Shown: in pieces, positions 37,539 through 45,795 of the stretch
Layout: every line of letters starts with the position of its first letter
How positions within the stretch are numbered: the stretch's first letter is position 1
Assembly: GCF_001577525.1 (NCBI RefSeq)
Contig: NZ_CP013015.1
Span: forward strand, 167,173 to 231,172
Origin: Candidatus Desulfofervidus auxilii
GTDB taxonomy: Bacteria > Desulfobacterota > Desulfofervidia > Desulfofervidales > Desulfofervidaceae
Direction of reading: 5' to 3'
DNA: 64,000 bases
Position numbers and translations under genes: made by a program
The notes under the pieces: model-generated
Seen by the model: only the letters and a program-made list of their open reading frames with translations
Database searches by the model: none
What the model was told of the DNA's origin: nothing

Positions 37539-37615
37539 TTTTCTTTGCTAAAACAAGCTATTTTATAAATCCCTCTTGATTTTTTTCTTCAAGCTTGTTA
37601 AAAATGAAAAGATGC

Positions 37616-37670
37616 TCCCCGGTAGCTCAATTGGCAGAGCGCCTGCCTGCCGCAGGCAGGGGTGGCTGTT
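37616..37670 (+). pseudogene. 5' half of a duplicated tRNA-Asn, interrupted by a palindrome
   Basis: TCCCCGGTAGCTCAATTGGC and the following D-arm are identical to the intact tRNA at 37909; after GAGCG a 19-bp palindrome is inserted, then GGTGGCTGTT (anticodon stem and loop up to the anticodon GTT) resumes. The sequence then runs straight into the GIY-YIG gene. No 3' half follows, so it cannot make a tRNA. Confidence 0.88.
37642..37660. repeat. GC-rich palindromic dispersed repeat, copy 3 (inside half-tRNA)
   Basis: CCTGCCTG-CCG-CAGGCAGG, a perfect 8-bp stem with a three-base loop, inserted between the D-arm and the anticodon arm of the tRNA-Asn fragment without loss of flanking tRNA bases. 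Confidence 0.85.
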
Positions 37671-37946
37671 ATGGAAAGTTGGTATGTATATGTACTAAAG
37701 AGTTTAAAAGACGGTAAATTATACACAGGTATAAGTAGGAATCCAGGAAAGAGATTAGGTGAACATAACAGAGGTAAGACAAAATCTACTAAATATAGAA
37801 GACCCTTTGTTTTGATATATACAGAGGAGTGTGTGTCTTTAAAGCAGGCACGAGATAAAGAAAAGTTTTATAAATCAGGAGGCGGTAGAGAAAAATTGAA
37901 ATCAATACTCCCCGGTAGCTCAATTGGCAGAGCGGGTGGCTGTTAA
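37671..37946 (+). CDS. GIY-YIG nuclease (UvrC-N/UPF0213-like) embedded in tRNA-Asn locus
   Basis: 91 aa from ATG 37671, which directly follows the anticodon of the half-tRNA (an upstream GTG at 37662 is also possible). Domain WYVYVLKSLKDGKLYTGISR (GIY/YIG motifs), KRLGEHNRG and RPFVLIYTEE, KEKFYKSGGGREKL. The last 13 or so residues (PGSSIGRAGGC) are a translation of the 5' half of the intact tRNA, and the TAA stop lies in the anticodon loop. Probably a selfish endonuclease cutting tRNA-Asn genes at the anticodon and restoring the gene with its own half copy. Confidence 0.85.
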   Translation: MESWYVYVLKSLKDGKLYTGISRNPGKRLGEHNRGKTKSTKYRRPFVLIYTEECVSLKQARDKEKFYKSGGGREKLKSILPGSSIGRAGGC

Positions 37947-37984
37947 CCACTAGGTTGCTGGTTCGAGTCCGGCCCGGGGAGCCA
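37909..37984 (+). tRNA. tRNA-Asn (anticodon GTT), CCA encoded
   Basis: Acceptor stem TCCCCGG/CCGGGGA (37909-37915 with 37974-37980), D-arm GCTC/GAGC, anticodon stem GGTGG/CCACT with loop CTGTTAA and anticodon GTT at 37942-37944, T-arm GCTGG/CCGGC with TTCGAGT loop, discriminator G and CCA at 37982-37984. Its 5' half also encodes the end of the GIY-YIG protein. Confidence 0.97.
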
Positions 37985-38215: not shown

Positions 38216-38284
38216 ATGGAAGTTTCCTCAGAAATAATGACCCTTGAGGAGACTGCAAAATATTTAAAGAATGTCAATAATTAA
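38216..38284 (+). pseudogene. Truncated excisionase-type HTH gene acting as operon leader
   Basis: Frame MEVSSEIMTLEETAKYLKNVNN: EIMTLEETAKYL is identical to the start of the intact HTH gene at 45806, then a one-base change and the break end the reading frame. It keeps a ribosome binding site (AAGGAG at 38199-38204), and the ATPase start codon at 38271 lies inside it in another frame, so it may feed ribosomes to the operon. Confidence 0.75.
38231..38272 (+). repeat. Left copy of inverted ~41-bp repeat bounding the six-gene cassette
   Basis: 38231-38272 matches the reverse complement of 45939-45979 over 41 bases except for one extra A. Both are the start of an excisionase-type gene. The six-gene operon occupies exactly the space between them. 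Confidence 0.8.
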
Positions 38285-39467
38285 AAACATAAACAAAATG
38301 GACAATATAAAAATAAAATATCCACATTTTCATTTGTCTGATTGGCCTTTTAGAGTTGTACCTGATGAAAGTTTTTACTCTTTTATGGCTGATAGAACTC
38401 AACTAGTTGGTGATATTAATACTTTATTGCGCAATCTTTCAAGACAACCTGCCTCGAGTATTCATTTAATGTGGGCATGGTTTGGAGCAGGCAAAACACA
38501 TACATTGAGACATATTGAATATTTATGTAAAACCAAAGTTTCTAATATAATTCCTATTTATATCGAGTTTCCTAAATCTACTAAGAATTTTTTAGATATA
38601 TATAGAGCATTTATAAATGGAATTGATATAGAAACATTAAAAAACGCTTATCTTGAAATATTTACAAGTCCAGAAAAAGATAAAATTCAAAAGAAATTAC
38701 ATTTTGATTTCCCAGATTTGTCTAATGCTTTAATGCTTCTGTATCAAGGAAATTTAGAACAACAAGAAATTGCCATTCGTTGGTTACGGACAGAGTATCG
38801 AGAGAAGAAAATACTTAGAAATATAAATGTTGTGAAACCAATTCAATCAGCGGAAGATGCTATTAAAGTAATTTCATGGTTAATTCGTCTTTTAAGCTCA
38901 GGAGAGGTTATTTCGGGCGAGGTTAAAAGAATATTATGGATGATAGATGAATACCAAAGAATAGAAAAATTAAGAAAATCTGTTATAGAAGAAATCAATG
39001 GTTGTTTACATTCAATATTTAACCAATGTCCCAATGGACTTTCAATTATAATTTCTTTCTCTGGATATCCAGAAGAAAAAAGATACCCAACTTGGTTATC
39101 TCCAGAAATTAAAGATCGTATTGGAATTGAAAAACCATTATTACTTCCACCATTATCAAAGAAAGAAGCTTTTAAATTTATAGAAGATATTTTATTACAT
39201 TTTAGAGCTTATCCATCACACATTAATATTCATGACAGATATTTCCCATTTACCAAAGAATCTATTGAGAAGGTAATAGATATAATAATAGATAAAGCAA
39301 AAAAGAGTAAACGAAAAGATGAGGAACCGAAACCTCGAACAATTATGCAATTTTTTAATTTGATTTTACAAGAAGCTGATCCACTGATTGAAAAAGGCAA
39401 GATGGAAGCAATATCTTCTGATTTTGTATCTAAGATTTTAACAAACATAAATTTACCAGAGGAATAG
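38271..39467 (+). CDS. P-loop ATPase 1 of six-gene cassette
   Basis: 398 aa (an internal ATG at residue 10 is an alternative start). Walker A in MWAWFGAGKTHTLRHIEYL (residues ~68-86), Walker B ILWMIDEYQRI at about 225, sensor-like SIIISFSGYP, and a C-terminal helical part. Looks like an AAA/STAND-type ATPase related to the archaeal ORC/BrxC-like group, and is a distant paralogue of the ATPase at 40248 (shared G-x-GKTHTL). No proper ribosome binding site of its own; probably reinitiation from the truncated HTH leader. Confidence 0.75.
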   Translation: MSIIKNINKMDNIKIKYPHFHLSDWPFRVVPDESFYSFMADRTQLVGDINTLLRNLSRQPASSIHLMWAWFGAGKTHTLRHIEYLCKTKVSNIIPIYIEFPKSTKNFLDIYRAFINGIDIETLKNAYLEIFTSPEKDKIQKKLHFDFPDLSNALMLLYQGNLEQQEIAIRWLRTEYREKKILRNINVVKPIQSAEDAIKVISWLIRLLSSGEVISGEVKRILWMIDEYQRIEKLRKSVIEEINGCLHSIFNQCPNGLSIIISFSGYPEEKRYPTWLSPEIKDRIGIEKPLLLPPLSKKEAFKFIEDILLHFRAYPSHINIHDRYFPFTKESIEKVIDIIIDKAKKSKRKDEEPKPRTIMQFFNLILQEADPLIEKGKMEAISSDFVSKILTNINLPEE

Positions 39468-39471
39468 GACA

Positions 39472-40245
39472 ATGCCTTTAATAAGTGAGATTGTCGGGCA
39501 AGAAGGAGTATATTCTTTATTAACTTCACTATATAAAGAAAAAGATACTTTTACTACAAGTGAATTAAATGAATTATTAAAAGAAACCGGTATCTCTGAT
39601 AATTTATTTTCAGAATTAGTAAGATTTGGACTTTTTATAGAGACTAAAGATGGATTTTATATTTCTTCTTTAGGTCAAAAAATTACTTTGCTTTTAAAAG
39701 CTATTAACGAAGATGAGGAAATTTTTCAAGTGTTTCAAGAACTTACATATTTTTATCCAAATCTCAGACCTTATGAGATTATAACTGAAAGCATTACTAA
39801 TTATTTTATTGATAATCTTTATAATAGACCTGATTTTATAAGAGTGTATATTTGTTCTCCTTGGATTCGGTTAGATAGGGGTCATATAGAAAAAATTGAG
39901 TCGGCCATTTACAAAGCTTCAAAACAGTATAAGAATATTCAAGTTTTTGTAATCACTTTACCAATAGAAAGATATCGTAGTAGAAAAGCGATTGATACTC
40001 TTAGAAACTTAAAACAGCTTGGTGCTGATATTGTAGTAAATGATAAACTTCATGCAAAGCTATATATAAGTGAGCCTGGTCCTTTAGGTGGTGAGTATTA
40101 TGCTATCTTTGGATCTGAAAATCTTACTGGTCGAGGAAATATAGAATTAGCTATAAAGATAAAAAATGACAATGAAATCTTAAGGAAATTAAATTCTTAT
40201 TTTTATGAGATTCGTCAAGAATCTTATATTTTAAAGGAGGTGTAA
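39472..40245 (+). CDS. Phospholipase D-like nuclease with N-terminal winged helix
   Basis: 257 aa. Residues ~1-75 look like a winged-helix domain (FTTSELNELLKETGISDNLFSELVRFGLF). The rest is a single PLD domain with the HxK motif in DKLHAKLYISEPG and GSENLTGRGNIELAI (residues ~190-225). One HKD motif, so a dimer would form the active site. Likely the DNA- or RNA-cleaving effector of the cassette. Confidence 0.82.
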   Translation: MPLISEIVGQEGVYSLLTSLYKEKDTFTTSELNELLKETGISDNLFSELVRFGLFIETKDGFYISSLGQKITLLLKAINEDEEIFQVFQELTYFYPNLRPYEIITESITNYFIDNLYNRPDFIRVYICSPWIRLDRGHIEKIESAIYKASKQYKNIQVFVITLPIERYRSRKAIDTLRNLKQLGADIVVNDKLHAKLYISEPGPLGGEYYAIFGSENLTGRGNIELAIKIKNDNEILRKLNSYFYEIRQESYILKEV

Positions 40246-40247
40246 AA

Positions 40248-41399
40248 ATGGCTAATGGAGTTGCTGAGTGGTTTGGTTTGAAACGCTCAAATTTCATTTT
40301 AGATCCTAAGAATGATGCTGAATTTTATGCTCCAAGGACAGGTGTGGACATACCAAAATTAATTGAAGGACTTCAAGTGAATTTAGTTACAGAACGACCA
40401 CCAAAACGATTTTTTTGGGGAGTTTACGGGGGAGGAAAAACGCACACATTATTTCACATTAGTAAAAAATTAGAAAGTTTACTAGAAATTTATCCAGTTT
40501 ATGTAGAGTGCCCGAGTGTTCCTAAAAAATCTACTTTTTTACATCTCTACCATGATGGAATTATGATGAGCATGGGTCAAGATTTTGTAGTAGGTCTATT
40601 TAAAGATTTAATTAAAAGTATTGGTGTCGTTAGCTTTGATGAATTACTAAACAAGTTAAAAGAAATTTTAGAAGATGAAGAACTTTCTCGGGCAGTTGCA
40701 AGTCTTTTAGGGGCTCGCCCTGATAAAGAACTCACCTTTTGGAGATATGTCTCAGGTGTAAGTGTTCCTTCAAGAGATTTAGCTGAATTAAATCAAACAC
40801 AGTCTCTTGCTGACAGCATCCCTTCTCGACTAGCAAATATTATAATAATTATTGGTCGAGTTATAAAAAAAGTGATGAACAAAACGTTAGTTTTAGTAAT
40901 AGATGAATTAGATAGACTTAAATCTATCGCAGATGAATATGGGATATCGACGTATGAAGAAGCTTTTAGGAAGCTGGTAGATGAAAACCAAAGAAATGTT
41001 GCTATAATAATGGGTTGTTCAGGCGTTAACATGCGAGAATTGCCCGAACCTTTTGCTGGAGGGGAACAAAGCCCTGTTCTTAATAGACTGGGGATACACA
41101 ATCTTATAGAGATCTCTGAAATTTCAGCAAATGACGTCGATAACTTCATCAAAGCAATTTTGAACTATATAGTAGATAAAGAACAGGCTCGGGAGAAAAT
41201 TAATAAATTAAAAGGAAATATAAATGAGACCCTAACAATAGACTTATTTCCTTTTACAAACGAAGCTATTGAAGCTTTGAAAGGAACTTTAAGAGGCATT
41301 ATGACCCCTAGAGAGATAACTCAGAGAATGTCTGATGCTGCGGGAAAAGCATTTCTAATGAAAAAACCTTTCATAACAAGAGAAATTATAGGAGGTTAA
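40248..41399 (+). CDS. P-loop ATPase 2 of six-gene cassette
   Basis: 383 aa with a strong AAAGGAGGTG site. Walker A GVYGGGKTHTLFHI (residues ~57-70), Walker B LVLVIDELDRLKS (~218), and sensor NVAIIMGCSGVNM. AAA/STAND-type like ATPase 1 and probably derived from the same ancestor. Two base pairs behind the PLD gene. Confidence 0.78.
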   Translation: MANGVAEWFGLKRSNFILDPKNDAEFYAPRTGVDIPKLIEGLQVNLVTERPPKRFFWGVYGGGKTHTLFHISKKLESLLEIYPVYVECPSVPKKSTFLHLYHDGIMMSMGQDFVVGLFKDLIKSIGVVSFDELLNKLKEILEDEELSRAVASLLGARPDKELTFWRYVSGVSVPSRDLAELNQTQSLADSIPSRLANIIIIIGRVIKKVMNKTLVLVIDELDRLKSIADEYGISTYEEAFRKLVDENQRNVAIIMGCSGVNMRELPEPFAGGEQSPVLNRLGIHNLIEISEISANDVDNFIKAILNYIVDKEQAREKINKLKGNINETLTIDLFPFTNEAIEALKGTLRGIMTPREITQRMSDAAGKAFLMKKPFITREIIGG

Positions 41400-41406
41400 G
41401 TAAAAA

Positions 41407-42882
41407 ATGGTAAAGCCCATTCCAAAATTGATTTTTAGAATTGAACCAGCATATTCTTTTCAACAAGAACTCAAAGCCCCACTTTTTAGAGAAAACAATA
41501 TATTAGTCGGAATGATAGGCTGTGGATTGGAATTAGAGGCTATCTTTTTAGGGAAGATTGCTGAATATGGAAAAAATTTAAATATATGGCTAGATTGCGA
41601 AGGCGCACATGCTATTTATGTAATTGGTAAAAGAAGATCTGGAAAAACTTATACTTTAGGGGTAATTGCTGAAGGGTTAGTGTCAAATAAATGGTTAAAA
41701 CAGGGGGATCAAAAACAGGCAATTCTTGTTCTTGATACAATGAATGTTTTTATTACTTCATCATATAGTGTTAAAGAAATTTGTAAAGAAAGAAGCAAAG
41801 AATTTGAAGAATTTAAAAAGTGGAGTTTAGAGCAAGAAAAACTTAATATAGTATTTTTTTATCCTAAAGGCAGTCCTTCTTCTCCAGAAGGAGTTTCACA
41901 AGAAATAGCTATAAGACCAGCGGATTTAGATGATAAAGACTGGGCTGCTCTTTTTAATGTAGATATATATAAAGATCCTATCGGGCAACTTATCTCTGAG
42001 CTATATGAAAAAGTAGCTTTAGAGGGTTATAAGGATTTAAATGGAAAATATATACAAGCTAATCAGAACTATTCCTTAATTGATTTATTAAACTGTTTAG
42101 ATAATTGTCCAGAAATTCAAAGAAGTTATCAATCTGATACAATTCGAGCAGTTAAGTCTAGATTTAAAGCAATTAAAAGATTACCTATTTTTTCTGAGGA
42201 AGGAATCGATATCAAAAAAATTTTTTCTTGTGGACAACTTTCCATTTTACTTCTTAGAGATATTGATCAGAATTTAAGAGCCCTTTTAGTCGGAATATTA
42301 ATTAAAAAAATAATGGAATTACGGAGTATTTCTGACAGGTTTGAAAGATTATGTAGAGTGCATAGAGAACGTTTTGAGCATTTTAAAGAAATAGGGGATG
42401 AAAAAAAAGCAAATGAAGCTTATCAAAAATATAGTGAATATAAACAAAAAGCTCAAGAAGGTTTACCACGAGGATGGATTATTATTGATGAAGCTCATAA
42501 CTATATGCCATCTAGAGGAATAACTCCATCAGCAGAACCTCTCAGAAAATATGTAAATGAGGGAAGAAATTTAGGTTTATCTATAGTAGTAGCCACTCAA
42601 AATCCATCTGCTTTAGACCCTTCTATTCGTCGAAACGCAGACATTTTAATTGTACATTCAATCAGTATGAGAGATGATATTTTTACTGCTGAAGGTATGG
42701 TGAATACATTTATTCCAGACCTTTTTGAGTTTGGAAGAGTAAAAATTTCAACAAGAGTTTTTGAACAACTGGTTAGAAGTTTACCAATAGGATATGCTGT
42801 TATCTCAAACGATATGATAAATAGGGTGTTAGTGGCAAAAATAAGGCCAAGAATAACAATCCACGGAGGAATAGAATATTGA
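41407..42882 (+). CDS. HerA-like ATPase
   Basis: 491 aa with a strong AGGAGG site. Walker A YVIGKRRSGKTYTLGVIAEG (residues ~77-96), Walker B WIIIDEAHNYMPSRG (~356), and the HerA/FtsK-type arginine-finger and sensor region GLSIVVATQNPSALDPSIRR. A hexameric DNA translocase is expected. HerA proteins cooperate with nucleases in defence (with Sir2, PLD or DUF4297 partners), here probably with the PLD protein. Confidence 0.85.
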   Translation: MVKPIPKLIFRIEPAYSFQQELKAPLFRENNILVGMIGCGLELEAIFLGKIAEYGKNLNIWLDCEGAHAIYVIGKRRSGKTYTLGVIAEGLVSNKWLKQGDQKQAILVLDTMNVFITSSYSVKEICKERSKEFEEFKKWSLEQEKLNIVFFYPKGSPSSPEGVSQEIAIRPADLDDKDWAALFNVDIYKDPIGQLISELYEKVALEGYKDLNGKYIQANQNYSLIDLLNCLDNCPEIQRSYQSDTIRAVKSRFKAIKRLPIFSEEGIDIKKIFSCGQLSILLLRDIDQNLRALLVGILIKKIMELRSISDRFERLCRVHRERFEHFKEIGDEKKANEAYQKYSEYKQKAQEGLPRGWIIIDEAHNYMPSRGITPSAEPLRKYVNEGRNLGLSIVVATQNPSALDPSIRRNADILIVHSISMRDDIFTAEGMVNTFIPDLFEFGRVKISTRVFEQLVRSLPIGYAVISNDMINRVLVAKIRPRITIHGGIEY

Positions 42883-43949
42883 TACAGCCACGTTTTATTA
42901 TGAAGACACACACAGGAGCTTTGAGGCCCGGAAATTATTCTATACTTATCGCTAAATGTACCTCTCCAGATAAGAGTTATTATCCTGAGCAAGTTGAGGG
43001 AAAATTAGCAAAGTTTATAGGTAGTAGATCAATTGCCAAGTATGTAGTTTTAATAGCTACAACAAAAAACCGAGGCTTTGGTTTTTTATTAGATAATATG
43101 ACTTGGAGTTGGAAGGGGCATGTGATAAATGCTGTCCTTAAATATTTGGGTAAATTCTCAGAAGATAAAAATGTTTATTTCAATCTATCTCAATTAGAAA
43201 AAATAGCTTATCTTAAATATTTCTTAGAAACAGAAGGAGCTTTAATTTTGAAATTCTCTGAAAAATTTGCTGATAAAAAAGAAATAACCTATTCTCATTT
43301 AAAAAATGAAATTCAAAATATATTTGAAGAAATTTATGAAGGCTATATAGATATAGCCCCTGATTTTAGAATAAGAATGAAGATCAAAGAAATGTTTAAA
43401 GAAATGCAAAGAAGAATGAAAAACAAAAAACATGTTTATGACAAAAGTACATTACCTCACAAGATTAAGCCTCATCTTCAAGCTTTATGTGATTTAGGAC
43501 TGTTAGAGGTGAAAAATGAAAATACGGAAGAGATATATAAGGTGGTCATTCATAATAAAATAAATCCTTTGGAGAGCTTATATAAAGAATTAAAAAACTT
43601 CAAACAGCTTGAGGAATCCATTGAGAATAATAACTTTTTCCCTATAATAGGGAAAATTTTGGGGTTAAATCCAACTAAATATTCCATAAAACAGCATGAA
43701 GAATTGCTTAAGGAGACTTTTCTTTTGGGATATAGATCAATGAAGAACGTTGTTGGGTTAGCCGATATTAGTGCTCTTGTTGATTGGTGTTGCATAAAGC
43801 TACTTTCTGAAAAGAATATTCTAATTTATCCTCAAGATGTTCAAGAATTTTTAGATAAAATAAGAAAGTATAATCCTTCTAGCATCCGATATCATGTGAA
43901 TGGAAAAGGAAGGATATCTTATATAATTTGGGATGAAACTTTTAATTAA
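42879..43949 (+). CDS. Uncharacterised protein of the six-gene cassette
   Basis: 356 aa. The first start is a TTG overlapping the herA stop (TTGA); ATG at 42900 (MKTHTGALRPGNY) is the more likely start. Residues ~45-75 (YVVLIATTKNRGFGFLLDNM) form a hydrophobic core; the middle is charged and helical (KEMFKEMQRRMKNKKH), with a winged-helix-like LPHKIKPHLQALCDLGLLEV near residue 190. No family recognised. Could be a DNA-binding or bridging subunit. Confidence 0.5.
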   Translation: MIQPRFIMKTHTGALRPGNYSILIAKCTSPDKSYYPEQVEGKLAKFIGSRSIAKYVVLIATTKNRGFGFLLDNMTWSWKGHVINAVLKYLGKFSEDKNVYFNLSQLEKIAYLKYFLETEGALILKFSEKFADKKEITYSHLKNEIQNIFEEIYEGYIDIAPDFRIRMKIKEMFKEMQRRMKNKKHVYDKSTLPHKIKPHLQALCDLGLLEVKNENTEEIYKVVIHNKINPLESLYKELKNFKQLEESIENNNFFPIIGKILGLNPTKYSIKQHEELLKETFLLGYRSMKNVVGLADISALVDWCCIKLLSEKNILIYPQDVQEFLDKIRKYNPSSIRYHVNGKGRISYIIWDETFN

Positions 43950-45795
43950 AGGAGTTAGAAGCACTGGACATTTTACAGAAATAATTCTCCAGGATGGATA
44001 TAATATCAAATTGAGGCCATTTATTTATGTAAAGAAAGGAGATTTCTTAGAATTTCTTCCATCAATTAAAAAATTTCAAGAAGTATATAAAATATTTGAT
44101 GATAAGGCAACTAGTGAGTTGAAGAAAATAAAAATCCACCCTCCTTATTGCACAAAGGAAACAATCTATTTAGGAGCACATCGTTTCAATGTAATATTTC
44201 GAGAAAGAATTAATTCCAACGATTGGAAGAAGATAAAAGAATTAGAAAAATTCCATTATAGAGGGAAAGGATTAAACAAATTAGTAGGGAGAAGAACCGT
44301 TCTTCTTGCTGAAATGAAGGATCATGGAGTTATTGGATTTGGTGTTATTTCTGCTACAGTTGCTGTTGCTAAACCTAGATTTGAACTTTTACAGACTAAT
44401 TTTACTGATCAAATGAAAACAAAGTTAATCAATCGAATTGTACGAATTCCAAGAATAGTTATCCATCCTGAATTCAGAGGAATAAATTTAGGAGTATTGA
44501 TGGCTAAACATTTAGTTCTATATGCCAAAAAATATTGGGATATTAACCATTATACACCTATTATGGTAGAGGTTATCGCGGCAATGACTGAATATCATAA
44601 GTTTTTCGAAAAGGCTGGGTTTATAAAAATAGGCTATACTTCAGGATATAAAAATGGAATAATACCTATATATGGGAATGGAAGTTTTGAATCAAGAAAT
44701 TATGAGTCTTACGATTTCATGGAAAATCAGAACCCTAAACCTTATTTGGTTTTCCCTTTAAACAAGGAGTTAAAACAAAAAATTAGACTATATTTCCCTA
44801 AAAAACAAAAGATGATTTTACATAAACATCCAAAACTGAAGCATTCAATAAAATTTGAAAATGTCTCTGTTAGTTATAAAATCAGAAATGGATCTACCAA
44901 AAGAACCGAAGTTATAAAAGAAGTATTCGGAGTAGATGCACAGCATGCTTTCTCTCCTATTTTAACAAATTTTTCTTTGGAAATAGAACCTGGTGATGTA
45001 GTTTTAATAACTGGAGCTTCTGGTAGTGGAAAAAGTACAATATTACGACTATTAACAGAAAAAAACACAACTTTGAAAAAAGAGATGGAAATTAGAGGGA
45101 AAATAATTAATAAAAGTTTAAAGGATATCGCAATTCTTGATACTAAATGGAGCAATTCTCTTCCTTTAATTGATCAGATAGGAAAAAATAAAGATATAAA
45201 AGAAGCTATAAAATTACTTAATTCAGTAGGACTTTCAGAAGCTCATCTTTATATAAAAAAACCAAATCAACTTTCTGATGGTCAACGATATAGATTTGCA
45301 GTAGCAAAACTTTGTGATTCTAATAAAGCAATATGGATTGCGGATGAGTTTGTTTCAACACTTAACTCTGAAATGGCAGCAATTGTTGCTAAAGGATTAA
45401 GAAAGGTAGCATATAAACATGGAGCAACACTAATTTTAGCAGCTCCTCATATTCATAATTTTATACATTTGCTTCTCCCTAACAAACTTATAAAACTTAA
45501 ATGGGGAACAAAACCGATTATTTATTCAATAAAAATAATAAATTTTTATCAAAACGGAGATAAAATTTCACTGTCTATTCTTAATAATGGTCATGTACCT
45601 CTTACAAATGTTCAGGTAGGTACAATTATAAGAAATGGTTTTTTTCTTTCACAAAATAATTTTAAACAAATTAATCCTAAGGATGAAATTTGCTGTGAAA
45701 TAAAAATAAGAAACAGTGAATATTATGCTTTAGGAATAAAAACTAACGAGGGAGTAGGGGAAATTTTATATTTAGAAATAATAAACAAGAAATAA
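43933..45795 (+). CDS. GNAT acetyltransferase fused to ABC-type ATPase (COG2401-like)
   Basis: 620 aa. N-terminal GNAT-like part (residues ~60-260) with VRIPRIVIHPEFRGINLGVLM (acetyl-CoA loop) and MTEYHKFFEKAGFIKIGY. From residue ~300 an ABC ATPase: Walker A LITGASGSGKSTILRLL, signature QLSDGQRYRFAVAKL, Walker B KAIWIADEFVSTL, and H-loop ILAAPHIHNF. The C-terminal ~90 residues look like a beta domain. This fusion is the rare, mainly archaeal COG2401 type. No membrane segments, so not a transporter. Overlaps the upstream gene by 17 bp. Confidence 0.82.
   Translation: MKLLIKGVRSTGHFTEIILQDGYNIKLRPFIYVKKGDFLEFLPSIKKFQEVYKIFDDKATSELKKIKIHPPYCTKETIYLGAHRFNVIFRERINSNDWKKIKELEKFHYRGKGLNKLVGRRTVLLAEMKDHGVIGFGVISATVAVAKPRFELLQTNFTDQMKTKLINRIVRIPRIVIHPEFRGINLGVLMAKHLVLYAKKYWDINHYTPIMVEVIAAMTEYHKFFEKAGFIKIGYTSGYKNGIIPIYGNGSFESRNYESYDFMENQNPKPYLVFPLNKELKQKIRLYFPKKQKMILHKHPKLKHSIKFENVSVSYKIRNGSTKRTEVIKEVFGVDAQHAFSPILTNFSLEIEPGDVVLITGASGSGKSTILRLLTEKNTTLKKEMEIRGKIINKSLKDIAILDTKWSNSLPLIDQIGKNKDIKEAIKLLNSVGLSEAHLYIKKPNQLSDGQRYRFAVAKLCDSNKAIWIADEFVSTLNSEMAAIVAKGLRKVAYKHGATLILAAPHIHNFIHLLLPNKLIKLKWGTKPIIYSIKIINFYQNGDKISLSILNNGHVPLTNVQVGTIIRNGFFLSQNNFKQINPKDEICCEIKIRNSEYYALGIKTNEGVGEILYLEIINKK

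Follow-up and report, generated by a model that had tools for sequence, protein, structure and literature searches.

A tRNA-Asn gene split and rebuilt around a small GIY-YIG nuclease gene: a candidate homing-like element with relatives in several bacterial phyla

How can a nuclease gene come to lie inside a single-copy tRNA gene while an intact tRNA is still encoded there? The locus that raises this question lies in a stretch of 64,000 nucleotides from the genome of Candidatus Desulfofervidus auxilii (the window), where a 293-bp insert occupies the tRNA-Asn gene. We analyzed this locus, its empty counterparts in relatives, and the loci of related nuclease genes, and we weighed several explanations for the arrangement they share.

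The tRNA-Asn locus and its empty counterparts

An intact tRNA-Asn (GTT) is found at 37909-37984 (ARAGORN; Rfam, 66.1 bits), and searches of the genome sequence, on which our genome-wide statements about this organism rest, returned it as the sole tRNA-Asn-like match at a comparable level in the single 2.54-Mb contig. Upstream, the 5' half of the tRNA is duplicated (37616-37671), closing with GTT-A. The two 5' halves are identical across 37 nt once an intervening palindrome is set aside, and the upstream half is therefore not a chance match. The features of the locus, with promoter hexamers read by eye, are as follows:

37576..37604, + strand: putative original tRNA-Asn promoter, with -35 TTGATT (37576-37581), a 17-nt spacer and -10 TAAAAA (37599-37604)
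37616..37641, + strand: old tRNA-Asn 5' half, positions 1-26, identical to 37909-37934
37642..37660, + strand: 19-bp palindrome CCTGCCTGCCGCAGGCAGG at tRNA position 26/27, its boundary ambiguous by 1 nt
37658..37662, + strand: Shine-Dalgarno-like AGGGG, 8 nt 5' of the ATG, recognized by sequence only
37661..37671, + strand: old tRNA-Asn 5' half, positions 27-37 (5' strand of the anticodon stem, GTT plus A), identical to 37935-37945
37671..37946, + strand: GIY-YIG nuclease ORF, 91 aa, ATG 37671-37673 and TAA 37944-37946 (Pfam PF01541, 1.9e-15)
37909..37984, + strand: regenerated tRNA-Asn (GTT), 5' half borne by the element, 3' flank conserved with the empty site of relatives

The initial annotation had described a 5' half-tRNA-Asn ending at the anticodon, with the nuclease ATG following at once. 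The junction is as described, the ATG abutting the anticodon GTT (37668-37670), and the half is present, but it is not a plain half: the palindrome CCTGCCTGCCGCAGGCAGG, previously overlooked, splits it at the base of the anticodon stem. The AGGGG, composed of the 3' arm of the palindrome and tRNA bases, is a plausible candidate for a ribosome-binding site. We discarded the palindrome as a terminator, since by eye no T run lies 3' of it. In its present position the promoter lies in front of the half tRNA and not of the intact gene, which is found ~300 bp further downstream. Beyond the nuclease ORF and a tRNA 5' half the insert contains little; the ORF is the only one in its 293 bp, and it encodes neither an integrase nor a recombinase. 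Despite the insert, the tRNA is rebuilt intact in sequence (ARAGORN; Rfam, ~66 bits). As for a group I intron, an Rfam search of the window gave the tRNA match only, and the tRNA is intact in the DNA.

The final 12 nuclease codons and the TAA fall within the intact tRNA-Asn, with the stop codon in the anticodon loop, as first read. The accompanying idea that the shared stretch does double duty for protein and tRNA fared poorly: the tRNA-encoded C-terminal tail is predicted to be disordered (pLDDT about 40), is unconserved among relatives, and looks like simple read-through. The remainder of the predicted structure is confident up to residue 80 (mean pLDDT, 85); its best PDB match is 1zg2 (UPF0213), and the nearest solved structures are UPF0213 proteins (1zg2, 1ywl) and Slx1. 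Pfam identifies GIY-YIG as the only domain of the 91-aa protein, with no further DNA-binding domain, and NCBIfam contains no family for it, with sub-threshold matches for some relatives. Twelve residues are invariant in an 11-row family alignment, including Y7, Y18, G20, R28, H32 and E64, which we take to be the expected sites of the GIY-YIG catalytic residues. Between pairs of related nucleases dN/dS is mostly 0.07-0.19, a measure that places the nuclease lineages under purifying selection.

Three genomes of the same family (G002, G003 and G004) carry an empty tRNA-Asn site, from which the window differs by the 293-bp insert. The 5' flank CTCTTGATTTTTT, which holds the -35 box and matches the window promoter, is the same in all three, and the 3' flank is closely the same in two. 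Compared with the empty allele, the insertion at tRNA-Asn is precise. For this comparison we rejected the patatin neighbor as a synteny anchor, the patatin loci of relatives being without a nearby tRNA, and used the tRNA-Asn flanks instead. A second syntenic set, from a different family within the phylum, preserves the order of a gene (a CDP-alcohol phosphatidyltransferase in our reading) and tRNA-Asn. There, tRNA-Asn is empty in G049, whereas G084 (locus L113) carries a 5' pseudo-half with two palindromes, then a nuclease gene, then an intact tRNA; the L113 nuclease is 59% identical to that of the window. In G012, from the genus of G049, a different GIY-YIG gene lies downstream of tRNA-Asn, and its presence and absence inside one genus are at most compatible with biased inheritance or unidirectional copying. 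Together, the same-family genomes and the second set bear out the earlier proposal of an element that inserted into tRNA-Asn, brought a 5' half and left the old one behind.

The region 3' of tRNA-Asn (38271-45795) encodes an AAA ATPase, a PLD-like protein, a second AAA ATPase, a HerA-like ATPase and an ABC-ATPase/acetyltransferase-like ORF. It gave weak PADLOC matches (DrmC, 2.7e-4; SngB, 1.2e-3) and is possibly a defense island.

Related nuclease genes and partial tRNA copies

Relatives of the nuclease were gathered through protein similarity alone, yielding 174 GIY ORFs in the loci we read. A tRNA gene lies within 400 bp of 105 of them, against a chance expectation of about 2% given how densely tRNA genes are spaced in the genome that holds the window, and in 105/105 tRNA-linked cases the ORF and the tRNA are on the same strand. 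These associations span 18 isotypes and include the Bacteroidota set, in which 33 of 36 GIY ORFs have a tRNA within that distance. The constant relation to tRNAs expected at the outset thus held in three phyla. No tRNA was found within 400 bp of the remaining 69/174, and a search for other RNA targets at members lacking a tRNA gave one unrelated Rfam match in 20 loci.

At least one partial tRNA copy lies close by for 76 of 99 such tRNAs, and the copies obey a strict polarity. Upstream of the intact tRNA, 55 keep the 5' end and only 1 keeps the 3' end alone; downstream, the 3' end is kept in 44 versus 1. This is the polarity predicted by target-splitting insertion with regeneration. As a control, we chose 29 tRNA-Asn genes of relatives blind to GIY genes: partial copies occur at one, which also has a GIY ORF.

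Three arrangements recur. In type A, found in the window and at L082, L091, L113 and L241, a 5' pseudo-half is followed by the nuclease gene and an intact tRNA; in type C (L007, L012), an intact tRNA is followed by the nuclease gene and a 3' pseudo-half; and in type B (L078, L094, L105, L240), partial copies lie on both sides. The units also form tandem arrays, with five 450-bp units that are 98-99% alike at L240, three identical 323-bp units at L241, and three units of 316 bp at L242. The window type of element was borne out, but its palindromes, the mirror-image type carrying a 3' half, the many other isotypes and the tandem arrays had all been missed at first.

Direct repeats and near-identical tandem units are also what would be left if tRNA loci simply recombined often, with the GIY-YIG gene a passenger or a repair factor in tandem duplications. 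We regard this as very unlikely, given that partial copies among the 29 control loci occur only beside a GIY gene, that their polarity is strict, that insertion relative to the empty site is precise, and that nuclease lineages follow isotype. On the last point, the isotype changes 44 times along the protein tree, compared with 69.4 +/- 1.9 times under shuffled labels (minimum 63 in 300), the tree being poorly resolved (87 columns) and the shuffle treating related hosts as independent. Read with that tree, the nuclease lineages track tRNA isotype. The window nuclease groups with that of L113; after it, the closest rows belong to Cys-tRNA elements from the Bacteroidota set and not to others from its own phylum, a placement that hints at transfer between phyla. 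The viral contigs searched yielded no relative, so they give no hint of a phage origin; 14 phage records had weak matches (about 36-42% identity), and the plasmid search returned one relative.

Close tRNA linkage and isotype-tracking lineages, together with the altered anticodon arm of partial copies, could alternatively mean that the nuclease acts on tRNA molecules in the manner of a toxin or defense enzyme, with the broken halves serving as decoy RNAs and the intact tRNA as a replacement. This we hold to be extremely improbable: the fold is that of a DNA nuclease, with UPF0213 and Slx1 as its closest matches; both the strict polarity and the empty sites indicate DNA insertion; and some arrays have no ORF at all. 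The latter are at L115 (reverse strand, 98-780) and L149 (1074-1440), where 62-bp and 119-bp units, respectively, consist of a tRNA-Asn fragment, a palindrome and a spacer; both arrays adjoin an intact tRNA-Asn that has a GIY-YIG gene, which suggests that they are non-autonomous copies.

Other placements were also observed. In three genomes (L124, L127, L132), GIY-YIG genes lie about 109 bp downstream of tRNA-Lys; L124 has two copies, and a short tRNA-Lys match falls within the 3' end of the first ORF. A sister clade is situated away from tRNAs (L101, L176, L093, L098, L104, L106, L166), its members having CCCTGTTAAATA in common in their 5' flanks. At L101 and L176, the inverse of this sequence lies directly downstream, such that the bounds are inverted repeats, CCCTGTTAAATA...TATTTAACAGGG. 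The ORFs at L098, L104 and L106 appear to interrupt genes for four-helix-bundle (23S intervening-sequence) proteins.

Break positions, palindromes and a candidate mechanism

With the anticodon set to positions 34-36, most 5' copies have their innermost end at 20-48, with 26 and 37 as the commonest positions, and 3' copies most often begin at 43-44 or 54-57. The breaks bracket the anticodon arm, a distribution that favors a cut at this site without proving it. GC-rich hairpins were detected in 59/97 partial copies versus 14/485 control stretches (p=4e-41; ~20-fold) and in 8/97 intact tRNAs. Palindromes of the kind CCTGCC..GGCAGG are added without loss of tRNA bases, at 22/23, 26/27, 36/37 or 55-57, and those of the kinds TCCCGC..GCGGGA and TCCGCC..GGCGGA replace about 10 nt of stem or the entire anticodon arm (27-43). 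Each of these changes would destroy the presumed target or the cloverleaf. Elsewhere in the window's genome, CCTGCCTGCCGCAGGCAGG recurs twice exactly and once nearly so, each time in intergenic DNA (G000:C1:883848, 1961348, 2083315), and ARAGORN reported no tRNA in the stretches around them. Sequences closely resembling it are found again in other phyla.

We think it probable that these loci are the product of a minimal homing-like DNA element, in which cutting by the nuclease at the anticodon arm is followed by regeneration of the tRNA gene from a carried half. In line with a homing endonuclease element, the insert holds a nuclease gene from a homing family, it is placed precisely, and the target gene is left whole in sequence. 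The 91-aa enzyme would make its break within or at the anticodon arm of the tRNA gene, and homologous recombination would repair it using an occupied copy as template, thereby inserting the element. The carried half would complete the gene, and one intact tRNA would therefore always remain, rendering the invasion of a single-copy essential gene harmless; the displaced old half would persist as a pseudo-half beside the original promoter. In the mirror-image type, a 3' half would be carried and the element would come to lie downstream of the tRNA. Units would accumulate in tandem, since the rebuilt tRNA would be open to a further hit. The palindromes of the old halves disrupt the D loop, anticodon arm or T loop or take its place; this may make these halves non-targets, poor recombination partners or both, and we tentatively propose that the palindromes protect them against cutting or recombination.

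For the window locus, this arrangement has a predicted conflict. The intact tRNA-Asn would be transcribed via the nuclease ORF, and its maturation by RNase P would cut the message near the 3' end. Transcription would have to traverse the ORF before reaching the tRNA, and RNase P cleavage at 37909 would therefore remove the last nuclease codons and the stop codon; each transcript would presumably yield the tRNA or an intact nuclease message, never both.

Several points count against homing. The rebuilt tRNA retains the whole presumed target and should still be cleavable, though the tandem arrays fit this. The break positions are scattered over the anticodon arm and beyond instead of falling at one base, and part of the tandem growth could be plain unequal recombination. 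The 69 ORFs that lack a tRNA within 400 bp also weigh on this side. Classical homing, moreover, has no need of palindromes. Their enrichment in partial copies, their clean placement at loop positions (22/23, 36/37, 55-57) or in place of the anticodon arm, and their recurrence in several phyla and outside tRNAs would be accounted for if single-domain GIY-YIG enzymes acted on single-stranded DNA hairpins. Transposition of that kind would target hairpin loops, tRNA genes (as cloverleaves) and palindromes would be both targets and cargo, and the palindromes would be mobile units or ends, comparable to REP/RAYT and to Ssn nucleases with their repeats; the related clade bounded by inverted repeats, which sits elsewhere, is in keeping with this. 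We nevertheless consider it unlikely. A regenerated half and isotype-tracking lineages better fit a gene half copied by homology, palindrome copies are scarce in the window's genome (3 exact), and GIY-YIG enzymes are not known to join strands.

Relation to known systems

The nearest kinds of element are fungal mORFs and phage SegB. In the mitochondrial mORFs of Allomyces macrogynus (atp6) and Glomus (atp6, atp9, cox2, nad3), a free endonuclease ORF in a conserved gene supplies a replacement gene end and leaves the old end, the atp9 case being a GIY-YIG enzyme (PMC3630166). The window element likewise supplies a working replacement for the gene end that it displaces, and leaves the old one. The mORFs, however, affect protein genes at their carboxy-terminal ends, have larger ORFs that are mostly LAGLIDADG, and carry a diverged end of foreign origin (PMC3630166), whereas the window's two 5' halves are identical and elements of its type occupy tRNA genes of bacterial chromosomes, involve either half, measure about 0.3 kb and have palindromes in the old half.

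SegB of phages T4 and T6 is, in the portions of the published account on which we draw, a free-standing homing endonuclease of the GIY-YIG family that is linked to tRNA genes of numerous isotypes and drives tandem amplification with the tRNA, and the segB 3' end shares microhomology with the tRNA 5' end (PMC13096335). Those portions concern phage tRNA arrays and describe neither a split tRNA with a regenerated half nor palindromes (PMC13096335). On that account, tRNA linkage and tandem amplification are common to both systems. Whereas SegB has an additional DNA-binding domain after its GIY-YIG domain, the window protein consists of a GIY-YIG domain alone, and its phage relatives are few and weak.

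Group I introns with homing endonucleases also invade tRNA anticodon loops (reviewed in PMC3984707), but the window tRNA is rebuilt in DNA, with no RNA splicing. Integrative elements and islands that occupy tRNA genes similarly target a tRNA gene and carry the missing part; the window element, in contrast, is without integrase or other cargo, breaks the gene at the anticodon arm, and has 5'- and 3'-half types. Proteins of the UPF0213/YhbQ type and Ssn have the same small single-domain GIY-YIG fold, and Ssn nucleases are linked to dispersed repeats, but the window family differs in its tRNA-linked mobile arrangement.

In an incomplete search confined to open-access journal papers, we found no description of bacterial GIY-YIG elements that regenerate tRNA halves and are scarred by palindromes, and no paper tying together palindromes, tRNA halves and GIY-YIG in bacteria. 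The tRNA-splitting elements are a large class, seemingly undescribed, present in at least three bacterial phyla. More tentatively, and with considerable doubt, single-domain GIY-YIG nucleases may be a broad mobile class recognizing DNA stem-loops, with anticodon arms and short palindromes as one kind of target, palindromes as the minimal non-autonomous form, and tRNA halves as the cargo that makes invasion harmless. If so, one enzyme family would explain both tRNA-splitting elements and the dispersed palindromic repeats of many bacteria.

The homing-like reading, for its part, would reveal selfish DNA that lives in single-copy essential tRNA genes without intron, integrase or cargo, paying for entry with half a gene. 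It would give a ready explanation for many genes labeled 'GIY-YIG nuclease family' beside tRNAs and for the broken tRNA fragments that confuse annotation, offer a handle on dispersed palindromes, and link bacterial chromosomes with phage SegB and the fungal mORF systems.
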